Shown: positions 24,389-30,126 of the stretch, piece by piece
Layout of the letters: each line of letters opens with the position of its first letter
Numbering within the stretch: position 1 is the stretch's first letter
Made by a program: the position numbers and the translations under genes
Assembly (NCBI GenBank): GCA_937927915.1
Contig: CALGKB010000011.1
Span: 1-64,000, forward strand
DNA from: an uncultured Pseudanabaenaceae cyanobacterium
GTDB lineage: Bacteria; Cyanobacteriota; Cyanobacteriia; Pseudanabaenales; Pseudanabaenaceae
Direction of reading: 5' to 3'
DNA length: 64,000 bases
Notes under the pieces: model-generated
What the model saw: the letters and a program-made list of their open reading frames with translations, nothing else
The model's database searches: none
Told to the model about the DNA's origin: nothing

Positions 24389-24840
24389 TAGACATTTTGC
24401 AACGGGAAATCAACACTCACCCTGAGCGATGGCGACCGCTGGTGTTGACCAATGGCTGTTTTGACATCCTCCATGCCGGTCATGTGCGCTATCTCACCGC
24501 TGCCCGTGCCCTTGGTCGCGCCCTGGTGGTAGGTCTTAACAGTGATCAATCCGTCCGACAACTGAAAGGGGAAACCAGACCGATCGTGCCCCAGGGGGAA
24601 AGGGCGGAAGTCCTCTTGGGTTTGAAGGCGGTTGATGCGGTAGTTATTTTTGAGGAGTTGACTGCCGATCGCTTGATCACGACTCTCCGTCCCGACATCT
24701 ATGTCAAGGGGGGGGACTACACCCCTGCTAATCTGCCAGAAGCCCCCACTGTCACAGCCATAGGCAGCAAGGTAGTAATAATACCGATCGAGATACCCAC
24801 TTCCACCACCAAAATCCTGCAACGCTTACACTGCTTGTAG
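24385..24840 (+). CDS. Nucleotidyltransferase, RfaE2 (HldE C-terminal domain) type
   Basis: The 151-residue protein is a cytidylyltransferase-fold enzyme with TNGCFDILHAGHVRYL (the HxGH nucleotide site), GLNSDQSVRQLKG and DIYVKGGDY. RfaE2 enzymes activate heptose-1-phosphate to ADP-heptose for lipopolysaccharide. Here it stands alone, without the kinase domain RfaE1. I chose the GTG at 24385, overlapping the pmbA stop (GTGA), over the listed 24325 start, because the family fold begins just after it. It overlaps the convergent hydrolase gene by 15 bases. Confidence 0.88.
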   Translation: MIDILQREINTHPERWRPLVLTNGCFDILHAGHVRYLTAARALGRALVVGLNSDQSVRQLKGETRPIVPQGERAEVLLGLKAVDAVVIFEELTADRLITTLRPDIYVKGGDYTPANLPEAPTVTAIGSKVVIIPIEIPTSTTKILQRLHCL

Positions 24841-25548
24841 GCAATAACTCCCAGCCTGCCAAAACTCCTGGATCACCCTACTAACTGCTTCTACCTGAAA
24901 ATGATGAAAGAAATGCCTGCCCTGGGGGAAAAGATAAAAACGATCGTTAGCTTTTAGCAAGGGTTGCCAGGTAGCCAGAGTATCAGGGTCACAGACAAAG
25001 TCGTCTTCACTGCCGCAGACCAAAAGGGGAACAGCTGTAGGTTCACTTTTCTGAAAGACAATCTGCAAGGGACTATGGGGATGGAAACCAAAAGCAAGGT
25101 CTTGCTCCAAGAGATTGACATAGAAACACAGTTCAGAGGGCGGTCGCTTGCCAAACAGATTGATCGCCATTTGTTGCAGCAGACAGTCACGGCAGATAGG
25201 CAAAAAATGCAAGTTAAAGTAATACTGCGCCATCCAATTCATTGCCATATTTCTCCCCACTGCTAGCAGGGTAAGGGACAACACCCGATCGGGAAACTTT
25301 TGGGCATACAAAAAGGCTAGCATTCCATTCACACTGTGACCAATGAGATGGACAGGGGGCAGAGGAGCAAGATAGTTTTCCAGGTTATACAACACCTCTG
25401 TTGTAGTAGTTGCCCTATCCATTTCCCCCTGCCTGTAAATCCACTGGGCGACGGAGTAATGTTGCCCCAAATGAAGTGCTAAGCTGACATCTAAGCGATC
25501 GTTGGTGGGACTAGTGCTAATAATGACCGCTGCTGGTTTATCTTTCAT
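24826..25548 (-). CDS. Alpha/beta hydrolase at end of isi operon
   Basis: The 240-residue protein has an alpha/beta-hydrolase layout: oxyanion region AAVIISTSPTND, nucleophile Ser in LIGHSVNGMLA (Asn where the usual GxSxG has the last Gly), acid in VCGSEDDFV and His in FPQGRHFFHH. The listed ORF starts 34 codons earlier in a hydrophobic stretch; ATG 25548 is better because it leaves only 11 bases of overlap with the upstream Cys-containing gene. It is the last gene of a leftward run beginning with isiA. The Synechocystis isi operon also continues past isiB; I cannot confirm that this is the same gene. Substrate unknown. Confidence 0.75.
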   Translation of the reverse strand: MKDKPAAVIISTSPTNDRLDVSLALHLGQHYSVAQWIYRQGEMDRATTTTEVLYNLENYLAPLPPVHLIGHSVNGMLAFLYAQKFPDRVLSLTLLAVGRNMAMNWMAQYYFNLHFLPICRDCLLQQMAINLFGKRPPSELCFYVNLLEQDLAFGFHPHSPLQIVFQKSEPTAVPLLVCGSEDDFVCDPDTLATWQPLLKANDRFYLFPQGRHFFHHFQVEAVSRVIQEFWQAGSYCLQAV

Positions 25549-25786
25549 AAAATCTTGGTTCAAAATCAGGACAATTGATAGCTTGGGGAGAAAGAGCATG
25601 AGAGGGATGCACAGTACATTTGAGACGATAATTACCCGTAAAATATACACAACGACTACAGGGAATACGATGTTGTTCCCTCACCCATTGCCAACCCGAT
25701 CGCAGGCTGCGCCAATAGCCATACAAAATAGTAATAACGATCGACCAAAAAGCTAGATTGTAAGCAATTATCCACAGCATTGTCAT
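25538..25786 (-). CDS. Small membrane protein with four-cysteine tail
   Basis: The 82-residue protein has one N-terminal membrane helix (LWIIAYNLAFWSIVITILYGY) followed by a soluble tail with the pattern CSRCVYF, then LKCTVHPSHAL and INCPDFEPR, i.e. four cysteines arranged CxxC...C...C with a nearby His. This could bind zinc or an Fe-S cluster. I do not recognise a named family. Its SD AGGGAGA is four bases before the ATG and lies in the 3' arm of a hairpin (25791-25816). It overlaps the hydrolase start by 11 bases, so the two are coupled. Confidence 0.7.
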   Translation of the reverse strand: MTMLWIIAYNLAFWSIVITILYGYWRSLRSGWQWVREQHRIPCSRCVYFTGNYRLKCTVHPSHALSPQAINCPDFEPRFYER

Positions 25787-25790
25787 TGAT

Positions 25791-25816
25791 TCTCCCTAAC
25801 CCCAGAGCAAGGGAGA
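25791..25816 (-). promoter_or_regulatory. Hairpin covering a ribosome binding site
   Basis: On the minus strand TCTCCCT and AGGGAGA form a perfect 7-bp stem around a 12-base loop. The 3' arm is the Shine-Dalgarno of the 82-residue gene. No U run follows, so it is better read as a possible translational switch or processing site than as a terminator. Confidence 0.45.
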
Positions 25817-25838
25817 GCAAAACTCCCCCTCTACCAAG

Positions 25839-25943
25839 TTAACTGAACATTAGATGAATGGCATTGAGACTAGCGACCATCATGTACGCCCACAGGGCAC
25901 AGAGCAGGCAGATAATCGCTACTTTGCTTTCATAGTGCATCAT
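25839..25943 (-). CDS. 34-residue single-helix membrane peptide in isi operon
   Basis: This ORF is below the length cut of the supplied track. It begins ATGATG eleven bases after the stop of the CP43-PsaL gene, with AGGA placed as ribosome binding site (overlapping that stop), and ends at TAA. The peptide has a short charged start (MMHYESK), one hydrophobic helix (VAIICLLCALWAYMMVASLNAI) with two Cys, and a tail HLMFS. Size and layout resemble low-molecular-weight photosystem subunits, but it matches none that I can recall (not PsaI, PsaJ, PsaM or PsbX by eye). The alternative is a chance ORF; operon position and spacing argue against that. Confidence 0.55.
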   Translation of the reverse strand: MMHYESKVAIICLLCALWAYMMVASLNAIHLMFS

Positions 25944-25954
25944 AGTCTGTCATC

Positions 25955-27451
25955 CTAGCCTAAAGGAAATAAACTCTGAATCTGCTCCCAATGCAACAGC
26001 AATCGATAGGCAAACACAGCCCCACCACAGCTCCCGACAAAGAACGCCGCCGTGAATTGACTCCATCCTTCCACTGTAGCCAGAGTTTCAGGCACATTGG
26101 GCACTGTGCGAGCAAAAGTAGGACGGGGTACAGTCACCAACTGCTTCTGGAAAGAGACAGTACCATAGGCAGAGAGAGCGATCGTCATCACCAATAACAA
26201 CGCCAGCGTCGCCAACAGACCAGAGGTGTAGGCAAAATCCGTATCACGGGCAGGATTCAGTTTCACAAAGGGACCAATTAGCCAATAACCATGTGCCATG
26301 CCGATTTCCAAACCTCTGGCAAAAGGTGAAAGACCAGCCCGATAGATAGGCAAACCCCGCAGAAAGGTGAGAGTAAAGTCAGAGGAATTGACAGGCGTAG
26401 CTAAATTGCCCACCTGGGGGTCATTGTCAAAGGGTCTTACCAAATCACCCTTGTTGAGGTCAAATACCCTCGCCTTAGCGCGAGCGCGAATAGCGTGCCA
26501 CACATGACCAGTGAGAAACAATCCCGCCAACACATAATGAAAAGTGGCTAACCAACCCCTGGCTGTAACTATGCCTGCTCCCGTCTGCCAAGTCTCCACA
26601 GGACCGTAAAAGACTTCAGGATAGACTGTATTGTTGTAGGTAACAAAGTAAGCTGCCAGCGCTCCCATGTATGCCAGAGCACCCAAACTGTAAGACAAAT
26701 AAGCCTCTCCGCTGTAGATGAGAACCGATCGTGCCCAACGGAAGGGCTGCGTGAGAATGTGAAAGATACCGCCACCAATGCACAAAAGACCGACATAGAT
26801 ATGACCGCCAACCACATCTTCCAGATTATTGACCGCTGCCATACCCCTACCATTGCCGATAACCCCAAATAGATAACCAAAAATGACAAAGGGATTGAGC
26901 GTAGGACTGGTAATTACGCGGACATCTTCCACCCTGGGGTCATACAAACCGCCCCAGAAGAGAGCTTTCGCTACAAGCAACAAGGCTCCTCCCCCTAGCA
27001 GCAAAAGATGAATACCGATGATAGTGGTCATTTTATCGCCATCTTCCCACTCATAGCCGAAGAAGCCCTCAAAGGTATTGCCAATGGGGAGTTTGTCTGA
27101 TTGCAACAGAGAATGGAATATACCCCCTGCCCCCAAAACAGCCGAGGAGACTAAATGCAAAACAGCAATGACAAAGAAGGGATAAGTGTCAACAATCACA
27201 CCCCCTTTACCTACCCCTACCCCCAAACTGGCAATATGAGGGAGAAGAATCAAACCCTGTTCATACATTGGTCGGGCGGCATCATAACGGGATAACTCAA
27301 ACAGAGTCATGGCTCCTGCCCACAGCACAATCAACCCCCCATGGGCAATATGGGCACCCAGCAGTTTCCCCGATAGTTCCGTCAGACGAGCATTCCCTGC
27401 CCACCAAGCAAACTGTTGCGGTTGTCTTTCGTAGGAAATTGTAGCTGTCAT
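25955..27451 (-). CDS. CP43'-like chlorophyll antenna fused to PsaL domain
   Basis: The 498-residue protein is an IsiA/Pcb-type chlorophyll-binding antenna of six helices (residues 1 to about 340; [61 protein letters not shown]) joined to a complete photosystem I PsaL domain (about 360-498; [62 protein letters not shown]). Such PsaL-extended antennae are known from some cyanobacteria and are thought to sit at PSI. I chose ATG 27451 over the listed 27481; AAGGAGAG lies ten bases before it. It follows isiB by 19 bases in the isi operon. Confidence 0.95.
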
Positions 27452-27470
27452 ACTTTCTCTCCTTTTTTGT

Positions 27471-27980
27471 TTACAGACCAAGCTCTTGTTTCAATTGGGC
27501 AGTCCAACGTTTTACCCGCTCTTCTGTCTTTTCGGGTTGGTTGTCTTCATCAATGGCAAGACCGACAAATTTACCATTGCGTACTGCCCTGGATTGATTA
27601 AATTCATAGCCCTCCGTTGACCAATAGCCAATAGTTTGACCACCCCGACTGCTGATTTTCTCCTCCAAAATCCCGATGGCATCCATAAAGTTATCCGCAT
27701 AGCCATACTGATCCCCCGTACCAAAGTAGGCAACCTTTTTACCAGAGAAATCCAGCTTGTCCAGGTCATCATAAATTGCCCCCCAATCTGATTGCAACTG
27801 CCCAATATCCCAGGTGGGACAGCCAAGGATTAAAACATCGTACTGTGTGAGTTCCTCCAGTTGGGTTTTAGAAATATCTTTACAGACAACTGCCAGTCCG
27901 TCTAACTCATCAACAATGAGGTCAGCGATCCCCTCTGTCTTACCCGTTGTGGTACCAAAAAATACCCCAATCTTAGTCAT
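27471..27980 (-). CDS. isiB: Flavodoxin
   Basis: Flavodoxin is the FMN protein that replaces ferredoxin as PSI electron acceptor when iron is short. The 169-residue long-chain flavodoxin shows the phosphate loop [12 protein letters not shown], the isoalloxazine loops around [12 protein letters not shown] and [15 protein letters not shown], and a C-terminal helix. A near-perfect Shine-Dalgarno (AAGGAGGT) overlaps the isiA stop and sits directly before the ATG. The order isiA-isiB is the classical iron-stress operon. Confidence 0.97.
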
Positions 27981-27990
27981 TTTTACCTCC

Positions 27991-29025
27991 TTAAACTTGT
28001 GCTAATACTGATTCCACTTTGCCTGTCCTGAAGTTAAAGCCCCAGGCTTGCAGAGCATGGAAAATATGTCCCTGCAGGAAGAAGAAACCGAGCCAGAAGT
28101 GCGCGTTGGCTAGCCATACCCTGTTCGTAAGACTACCATCTAAGCTGGCAAAATAGGGGAGAATTCCCATCTTAATCACCAAGGGATCGCCATAGAAAAC
28201 GATCGGATAAACAGTAGTATTAACTGTGACAAAGTAGGTAGCCACAAATGCCATCAAAGCTAGAGCACCCAGGCTATAGGAAAGATAAGCCTCCCCTGAC
28301 CAAATGAATAGCCTTTCTGTCCAGCGGTAGGGCTTTGTTAAAATATGAAAAATGCCACCGCCAATGCAAATTGTGCCAATCCAAATGTGCCCCCCTACCA
28401 CATCTTCTAGGTTGTCCACACTGGCAAGCCAATTTTTCCCGATCGCTCCCACCAAATAAGCAAAAATAATACCTGGATCGAGGGTAGGATTAGTAATTAA
28501 GCGGACCGTCCTAGCGATCGGGTCGTACAATCCCCCCCAAAACATAGCCTTGACAACTAACAATAAAGCCCCCAATCCCAAAACAATTAAATGGAAGCCA
28601 AGAATGTTAGTCATCTTGTTGGTATCTGCCCAGGTATAGCCATAGAAAGGCAAGTTTAACAAAGACTTCGGTCCCCGCAGAGCATGAAAGATACCACCAA
28701 AGCCCAGCACTGCCGAAGAGATCAAGTGCAAAACACCAATGACATAAAAAGGATAAGTAGAAACCACCGTGCCATCAGTGCCTATCCCCCACCCCTGCGT
28801 CGCCAAATGGGGCAAAAGAATCAAACCCTGTTCATACATAGGACGAGTGGGATCAAAATGGGCAATCTCAAACAAGGTCATCAGCCCTGCCCACAGCACA
28901 ATCAACCCTGCATGGGCAACATGAGCACCCAACAGTTGACCCGATAGGTTAGTCAGCCGCGCATTGCCCGCCCACCAAGGGATATTGCCGTCAACCATAG
29001 CCTGCATACGCTGTTCCATTTCCAT
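27991..29025 (-). CDS. isiA: Iron-stress chlorophyll-binding protein IsiA (CP43')
   Basis: IsiA is a six-helix chlorophyll a antenna that forms rings around PSI under iron limitation and can quench excess light. The protein (about 344 residues) has [31 protein letters not shown], conserved chlorophyll-binding His residues, [24 protein letters not shown] and the C-terminal [22 protein letters not shown]. It lacks the large lumenal loop E of CP43, as expected. Several start codons are close together (GTG 29028, ATG 29025, 29019 and further); I chose the first ATG, but a start ten residues before WWAGN is equally possible. It is the first gene of the isi operon. Confidence 0.95.
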
Positions 29026-29352
29026 CACTTATTGATAACCAAACTCAGTAGTCAGGATAGATATTACTAGCTGTGCTTTAGTTTATCAAGAGTCATTACT
29101 ATTAAATTTGTGTTAAGAACTGTTTCACTAGGAAGAAAAAACGGAAAAACGCCAGGTAGAACCCCCTGTCTACCCAGCTAGCCTACTCTATGAGAGGAAC
29201 AGTCATGTCTCACTTGACTAGTATAACCCTAGCATAGATGCAATTTACTTGCAATAGTTTTATTTAAAAAATTTTTCAGTTGGTTTAGGTAGACCATGGT
29301 TGCAATTGACGCGGACAGGGGGTAGTGATAAGGTAGGATGACCTGGTTCTAA
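29026..29352 (-). promoter_or_regulatory. isiA upstream region
   Basis: About 330 AT-rich bases without an ORF lie before isiA and must contain the iron-responsive promoter. An inverted repeat TGCAA-TTTAC-TTGCA is at 29239-29253, about 215 bases before the start codon; a long isiA leader is known in Synechocystis, so this may be near the promoter. No good 19-bp Fur-box match (GATAATGATAATCATTATC) was found by eye. Confidence 0.4.
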
Positions 29353-29743
29353 GGGATTGCCCGCTATGTGGGGTCAGTGGAAGTGGGCAAATTTGCCGAC
29401 CTCTTGTCTGTGGAAACCCGCCTTTTTGGGTGTCAAACCTGAGATGGTGCTCAAGGCAGGGGCGATCGCTTGGAGTCAGATGGGGGATGCTAACTCCCCA
29501 ACCCAGCCATATGCGCCCTATGTTTGCCAGCTATGGACGATTGATCGGTCAGACGTCTTTTACCTTTATGTCTAAAGTTAAGAGGTTGTCCCACAGATGT
29601 TAGGCTTACAAAGACGGGTGTTGCCTGTGGCAAATACGCGTTGTATTGGCAAGAAAGACCTCAAACTCAACGATGCTCTGCCGCAAATAGAAGTTGACCC
29701 TGAGACCTATGTAGTGCGGGCGGACGGGGAAATTCTCACCTGA
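29353..29743 (+). pseudogene. ureC: Urease alpha subunit fragment (C-terminal part), broken
   Basis: Translated in three frames, this stretch gives consecutive pieces of the UreC C-terminal region: [17 protein letters not shown], then [22 protein letters not shown] with QMGDAN, then [21 protein letters not shown], then [22 protein letters not shown] and [15 protein letters not shown]. At least three frameshifts and a small deletion (the ASIP of ...GDANASIPTPQP) break it, and the usual ending CEPA...MAQRYFLF is missing. About 430 N-terminal residues with the nickel ligands are absent. It is a relic of a urease gene, fused to the urtE fragment that follows. Confidence 0.85.
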
Positions 29744-30126
29744 AAACAATAGATAGAGAAACAGCCCTTACAGAAGTCTTTGCACTATTCCCTGTCCTAG
29801 AATCTATGCAAAATCGTCGTGGTGGCGACCTCAGCGGTGGACAACAACAGCAATTAGCGATCGGGCGAGCACTCCTAGGCAATCCCCAACTTCTGTTAAT
29901 GGATGAACCAACAGAGGGAATACAGCCTTCTATCATCTTAGAAATTGAGGCAGCAGTGCGCAATATTGTCAACAAAAGGGGAATTGGCATTTTACTTGTA
30001 GAACAGCATCTACATTTTGTCAAGCAAGCAGATTATTATTATGCTATGCAAAAAGGAGGGATAGTAGCCTCCGGCAACACTGCCAGCCTGACTAAGGAAA
30101 TTATTCAGTCCTATCTATCTGTTTAA
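29744..30126 (+). pseudogene. urtE: Urea ABC transporter ATPase fragment (UrtE C-terminus)
   Basis: An open frame of about 127 codons, without its own proper start, matches the second half of UrtE: FALFPVLESM, RRGGDLSGGQQQQLAIGRALL (ABC signature), LLLMDEPTEGIQPSII (Walker B) and ILLVEQHLHFVKQADYYYAM. Walker A and the first ~100 residues are gone, so no ATPase can form. It begins where the ureC fragment ends, suggesting one deletion joined the two genes. Unlike the ureC piece it has no internal frameshift. Its stop overlaps the convergent kinase gene by four bases. Confidence 0.85.

Follow-up and report, generated by a model that had tools for sequence, protein, structure and literature searches.

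Directly downstream of a gene for a CP43–PsaL fusion antenna, the stretch of DNA analysed here (64,000 nucleotides from an uncultured member of the Pseudanabaenaceae, referred to below as the window) carries a short reading frame, ORF34, that is a real gene, its coding frame being held by purifying selection in the window genome and in both congeners. Since its frame, start, stop, ribosome-binding site (RBS) and peptide are all kept in both congeners, we conclude that it encodes a real membrane microprotein. As to the role of this protein, we see about an even chance that it would be a lineage-specific single-pass thylakoid microprotein, made from the isi mRNA and packing against photosystem I (PSI) or the PSI–IsiA complex.

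Results

ORF34 occupies positions 25943..25839 on the minus strand (stop included) and encodes 34 amino acids in 34 codons, ATGATGCACTATGAAAGC...ATGTTCAGTTAA = MMHYESKVAIICLLCALWAYMMVASLNAIHLMFS, with ATGATG at its start and AGTTAA at its finish. Its ATG begins 11 nt beyond the TAG stop codon of the fusion gene (25955-25957), and a reading of the sequence gives an AGGA ribosome-binding core (25953..25956, minus strand) that overlaps this stop; the ORF lies exactly in the place given in the initial annotation. The product had been described there as a one-helix peptide, and both the hydropathy profile, which has one hydrophobic stretch and a maximum of 2.4 over 19 residues, and the AlphaFold model, in which a helix is predicted over residues 2-33 (pLDDT 91), agree with this description. 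Together with the sequence itself and the comparison of congeners detailed below, these analyses support the assignment as a single-helix membrane protein. In being short, with one membrane helix and no large extramembrane part, ORF34 has the form of the low-mass single-helix photosystem subunits. Gene finders readily overlook single-helix proteins of ~30 residues, and several of those in the two photosystems came to notice only late. Nine nucleotides past the ORF34 stop, a G+C-rich hairpin can be read directly on the minus strand (GGGGGAG-TTTTG-CTCTCCC, 25811..25829); it is not scored as an intrinsic terminator in the window, and its counterpart in the congener G387 (L133:5988-6008) has a T run and is scored as one.

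The comparison set consisted of the window genome (G000, 2.4 Mb) and both congeneric genomes on hand, G386 and G387. In G387, whose fusion is 91% identical to that of the window at the protein level, ORF34 is found at the identical +12 position after the fusion, and 29/34 residues are identical to the window copy (MMHYESKAAIIFLLGALWAYTMVASLNAIHLMFT), while the copy of G386 has 24/34 identical residues (MTHYEIKATIIFLLGALWAYTMVASLNATHLFFG). There are no indels among the three copies, start and stop are kept, and an RBS lies upstream in 3/3 congeners (TAGGA also in G387, TAGGAGGA in G386). The initial annotation had made its reading depend on conservation of the frame and the peptide in close relatives, and both are kept in G386 and G387. 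Most of the change is synonymous and falls on third positions, with 2/4/8 substitutions at codon positions 1/2/3 between the window and G387, and 7/6/19 and 7/4/18 in the other two pairs, and the NG86 method gives a dN of 0.06 versus a dS of 0.67 for the window and G387. The probability that random substitution yields equally few amino-acid changes without a stop, in a test that takes no account of base composition, is 0.003 for the window and G387 and <5e-5 for the other two pairs, and the constraint holds in the three genomes over a nucleotide divergence of up to about 30%. An arrangement of this kind is also rare at gene ends: when 499 ends of ORFs of >200 codons from 68 sequences were filtered for an ATG-initiated ORF, 28-60 aa long, that lies no more than 150 nt away and has a TM-like stretch, such an ORF was present at 9/499 ends, and together with an RBS core at 3/499, the three survivors being ORF34, a 37-aa ORF of the relative UBA999, and a true PsaJ in another genome (recognised by eye). 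Within the peptide, His3, Asn27 and His30 are kept in all three congeners. The two Cys residues to which the initial annotation drew attention are present in the window peptide as Cys12 and Cys15, but both congeners have Phe and Gly instead, which leaves the Cys residues as a detail without weight.

The minus-strand order of genes in the window is isiA, isiB, the CP43–PsaL fusion, ORF34, an ORF for an 82-aa protein, and an isiC-like hydrolase. The isiA-like gene encodes a CP43-type antenna (27991..29028, minus strand, PF00421), and isiB a flavodoxin (27471..27980, minus strand, PF00258). The IsiA2-like fusion antenna (25955..27481, minus strand, with a probable start at 27451) combines PF00421 with PF02605, and its best PDB match is chain 1 of 7y3f, which is IsiA2 of the Anabaena PSI–IsiA complex (E 4e-198). 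The block ends in the window and in G387 with the isiC-like alpha/beta hydrolase (24826..25650, minus strand, PF00561), whose probable start is downstream of the GTG at 25650. A putative sigma-70-like promoter upstream of isiA (TTGATA-17-TAATAT, 29061..29089, minus strand) is the same in G387 and is a consensus match only, of background frequency. G387 carries the entire block of six genes, isiA-isiB-fusion-orf34-orf82-isiC, in the same order (window 24826-29028, L133 2781-6979). The flanks of the block differ, with a TonB receptor and dnaN in G387 and urease/urea-transport fragments and an rfaE2-like gene in the window (recognised by eye), so that the six genes seem to have travelled together. 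Short adjoining plus-strand ORFs upstream of isiA (29597-30126), which we take to resemble the C-terminus of urease alpha and that of a urea-type ABC ATPase, are remnant-like. A strong hairpin with a T-run (GCTGGGTAGACAGGGGGTTCTACCTGGC GTTTTT, 29151-29178, minus strand) is situated upstream of the isiA promoter and is kept in G387 (L133:2627-2656) within ~60 nearly identical bases, though the next genes differ. In Synechocystis, isiA, isiB and sll0249 are co-transcribed and iron-induced, and the adjacent ssl0461 is iron-induced as well (PMC3516471), and in Anabaena PSI, PsaL is replaced by an IsiA that bears a PsaL-like C-terminal domain (PMC9938196).

The 82-aa gene (25538..25786, minus strand) follows ORF34 in all three congeners and is the sole neighbour of ORF34 that is common to them. 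As read from its sequence, the protein has one TM helix and a Cys motif, IPCSRC...LKCTVHP...CPDFE in the window and IPCxRC...LKCTVHP...CxDFE in its general form, and it is without match in Pfam, NCBIfam and PHROGs. The family is widespread in cyanobacteria (101/145 relatives), and in about a dozen other genomes its members are encoded at a distance of up to 9 kb from a CP43–PsaL fusion, which makes the 82-aa gene itself an isi-neighbourhood gene. To judge by its position, ssl0461 probably corresponds to the 82-aa gene and not to ORF34.

G386 has retained ORF34, under constraint, at a locus that has no antenna gene. ORF34 and the 82-aa gene adjoin there, between secD-secF (recognised by eye) and an unrelated gene, and a search of this MAG, which is about 90% complete, for isiA, isiB and the CP43–PsaL fusion did not find them, so that the position in the isi block is conserved in the window and G387 but not in G386. 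The absence of the antenna genes may be an assembly gap. With ORF34 kept in G386 and none of these genes found, the protein would need no antenna role in that genome, within the limits of its 90% completeness. The 30 nt before the G386 ATG match the end of the window fusion and the ORF34 leader at 21/30 positions (TTCCTTTA.G.TAGGA), with at most 19 matches for unrelated ATGs in the fetched loci; the local p of this match is 0.004 versus the window and 0.48 versus G387. A possible promoter of G386, TTGATA-17-TAGTAT, resembles the isiA promoter (p about 0.04). A deletion of the antenna genes ahead of ORF34 would explain both the leader match and the promoter resemblance, each of which is weak, the former finding no support in the comparison with G387, and we raise a deletion scar ahead of the retained ORF34 as a suggestion only. 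The region before ORF34 in G386 (L150:7080-7200) contains TVNDRGFIVPGLGN, which we take to resemble the C-terminus of a uracil phosphoribosyltransferase, a possible gene remnant at the point of rearrangement.

A search of 386 genomes of the phylum with the single sequence and with a four-row profile gave the window's own genome as the only clear ORF34 match, and the weak matches (E 4e-4 and above) were mostly partial and lay on longer or stop-interrupted frames. With ORF34 HMMs, applied near the 82-aa homologues and in all fetched loci, no further copy was found outside the three congeners and UBA999. The suggestion that ORF34 is a general companion of PsaL-fused antennae did not hold up, as it was not found at about 50 other CP43–PsaL fusion loci (Nostocales, Leptolyngbya-like, Xenococcus and other lineages), where its place is taken by a flavodoxin, a hydrolase, an 82-aa homologue or nothing. 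UBA999 (G392), which belongs to the same family, has a 37-aa one-helix ORF (MLYSQKVLQTYLLGILFASAVTTMISWLHFVMLSFSI) between the fusion and isiB at locus L008, with GGAGG ahead of its ATG. Ungapped alignment with the congeners reveals a common M, Y, K, V, LL(G), L, A and a late His; the match to His30 needs this ungapped alignment, and MAFFT puts the His elsewhere. The p values of the similarity in shuffling are 0.001 versus G387 and 0.03 versus the window, and a three-sequence HMM built without the UBA999 ORF does not pick this ORF out, scoring it with only 4.5 bits, at rank 126/27363. The 37-aa ORF is alike in position and form, and its homology with ORF34 is suggestive only.

ORF34 has no match in Pfam (E up to 10), NCBIfam, PHROGs or PDB chains, and an hmmscan with four homologues at E up to 10 was empty, with no PsaJ family among the Pfam results. 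Identity with PsaI (PF00796), PsaM (PF07465) or PsaK (PF01241) was rejected, the matches of the genome over cut-off being located on contigs C5, C1 and C7, as was identity with PsaX (PF08078), for which the window genome has no match at E up to 1. PsaK had been considered on account of a weak profile match (E 0.1) in the PsaK of another genome, G395, and was dismissed because the window genome has a normal PsaK elsewhere. PsaX is found over the family cut-off in none of G000, G386, G387 and G392, and PsaI and PsaM are present there. IsiX of the LoLiP antenna is a different thing, namely a protein of the IsiA type whose C-terminus bears a long extension, and a 'PsbK' that could be taken as an earlier case of a one-helix partner of IsiA is a single mention in a legend and probably a misprint for PsaK (PMC12808642). 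As the Psa profiles, Pfam, NCBIfam, PHROGs and PDB are all without match, ORF34 represents an unnamed family, and it is in form only that it belongs to the known kind of one-helix photosynthetic microproteins. The initial annotation is supported in part: its membrane microprotein is real and conserved, and the role suggested there, as an antenna-tied subunit of PSI or PSII, is a conjecture that has against it the missing match to any known small-subunit family, the failure to see ORF34 beside about 50 other CP43–PsaL fusions, and the G386 locus without antenna.

Discussion

According to the mechanism that we propose, the isi mRNA (isiA - isiB - CP43/PsaL fusion - orf34) would carry ORF34, which would be translated from its own RBS on the fusion stop codon and made along with the antenna in iron starvation. 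The helix would pack in the membrane against PSI or the PSI–IsiA supercomplex, like other one-helix PSI subunits, and His30 and Asn27, as well as His3 at the other end, could be chlorophyll or subunit contacts. PSI is favoured as the partner because of the neighbouring genes, with ORF34 immediately following the fusion gene in 2/3 congeners, and because there are many one-helix PSI subunits. The retention of ORF34 in G386, where no antenna gene was found, would make the PSI core a likelier docking partner than the antenna. A narrower version, which we put forward tentatively and consider unlikely in its entirety, has ORF34 as a PSI-docking one-helix iron-starvation subunit that would have arisen beside the CP43–PsaL antenna in Pseudanabaenaceae-like cyanobacteria and would have been kept in the sister species after a deletion of the antenna operon; it would bind the PSI core and possibly chlorophyll via His30 or Asn27.

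The main rival explanation is a joint role with the Cys-rich 82-aa protein that is independent of the antenna, such as membrane-protein assembly, the handling of redox or metals, or quality control under iron stress, so that the vicinity of the antenna would be incidental. We regard this as possible, albeit with clear doubts. The two genes are adjacent in 3/3 congeners, including G386 with no isi genes found, and the 82-aa homologues near the fusions of other genomes are in line with such a role. However, the 82-aa family is widespread and ORF34 is not, and the 82-aa protein therefore does not need ORF34. Furthermore, a terminator-like hairpin separates the two genes in G387, the 82-aa homologue of UBA999 is on another contig than the fusion and the 37-aa ORF, and G386 has a second 82-aa copy without an ORF34 neighbour.

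ORF34 could also be a dedicated subunit of the CP43/PsaL-fusion antenna or of a PSI-monomer–IsiA complex, and useless without it. That ORF34 follows the fusion immediately in the window and G387, as a similar ORF does in UBA999, would fit this, but most fusions are without a downstream counterpart, and ORF34 is conserved at the antenna-free locus of G386; we thus consider a dedicated role improbable, and reading ORF34 as an antenna subunit is a guess. It is very improbable that ORF34 is spurious or decaying, be it a hydrophobic spacer frame or what is left of a once larger gene, as one might think of an ORF so short, narrowly distributed and without family match, since codon-position bias, zero indels and the kept start, stop and RBS contradict this across three genomes that differ at up to about 30% of their nucleotides here. 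Equally improbable is a toxin-like or signalling peptide, small and hydrophobic, with no connection to photosynthesis, which would suit the size, the single hydrophobic helix and the free-standing G386 copy with its strong RBS but not the location within a photosynthesis operon in 2/3 genomes.

ORF34 is a concrete and conserved candidate in an iron-starvation operon, and G386 provides a natural experiment that can separate a part of the antenna from a component acting with PSI or another partner. If ORF34 is in PSI, the iron-stress form of the complex gains a subunit.

Among known systems, PsaI, PsaJ, PsaM and PsaX are like ORF34 in having 30-45 residues and one membrane helix and in being coded near other PSI genes, but they have no sequence match with it, and PsaI and PsaM of the window genome are encoded elsewhere. 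The IsiA2 with PsaL-like domain in the Anabaena PSI–IsiA structure (7Y3F) is of the same kind as the product of the gene next to ORF34, which makes a PSI context plausible, whereas that structure contains only known PSI subunits and one unassigned chain at the PsaK position (PMC9938196), and the fusion loci of Nostocales, unlike the window, are without an ORF34-like ORF. SliP4 of Synechocystis, with 37 aa, is similar in size and is described as stress-induced and as affecting photosynthetic electron flow; it differs in being high-light-induced and without a link to isi, and the likeness is one by description only (PMC12850537). In its setting, ORF34 resembles ssl0461 of Synechocystis, a small gene at the end of the isi cluster that is induced by iron starvation (PMC3516471).
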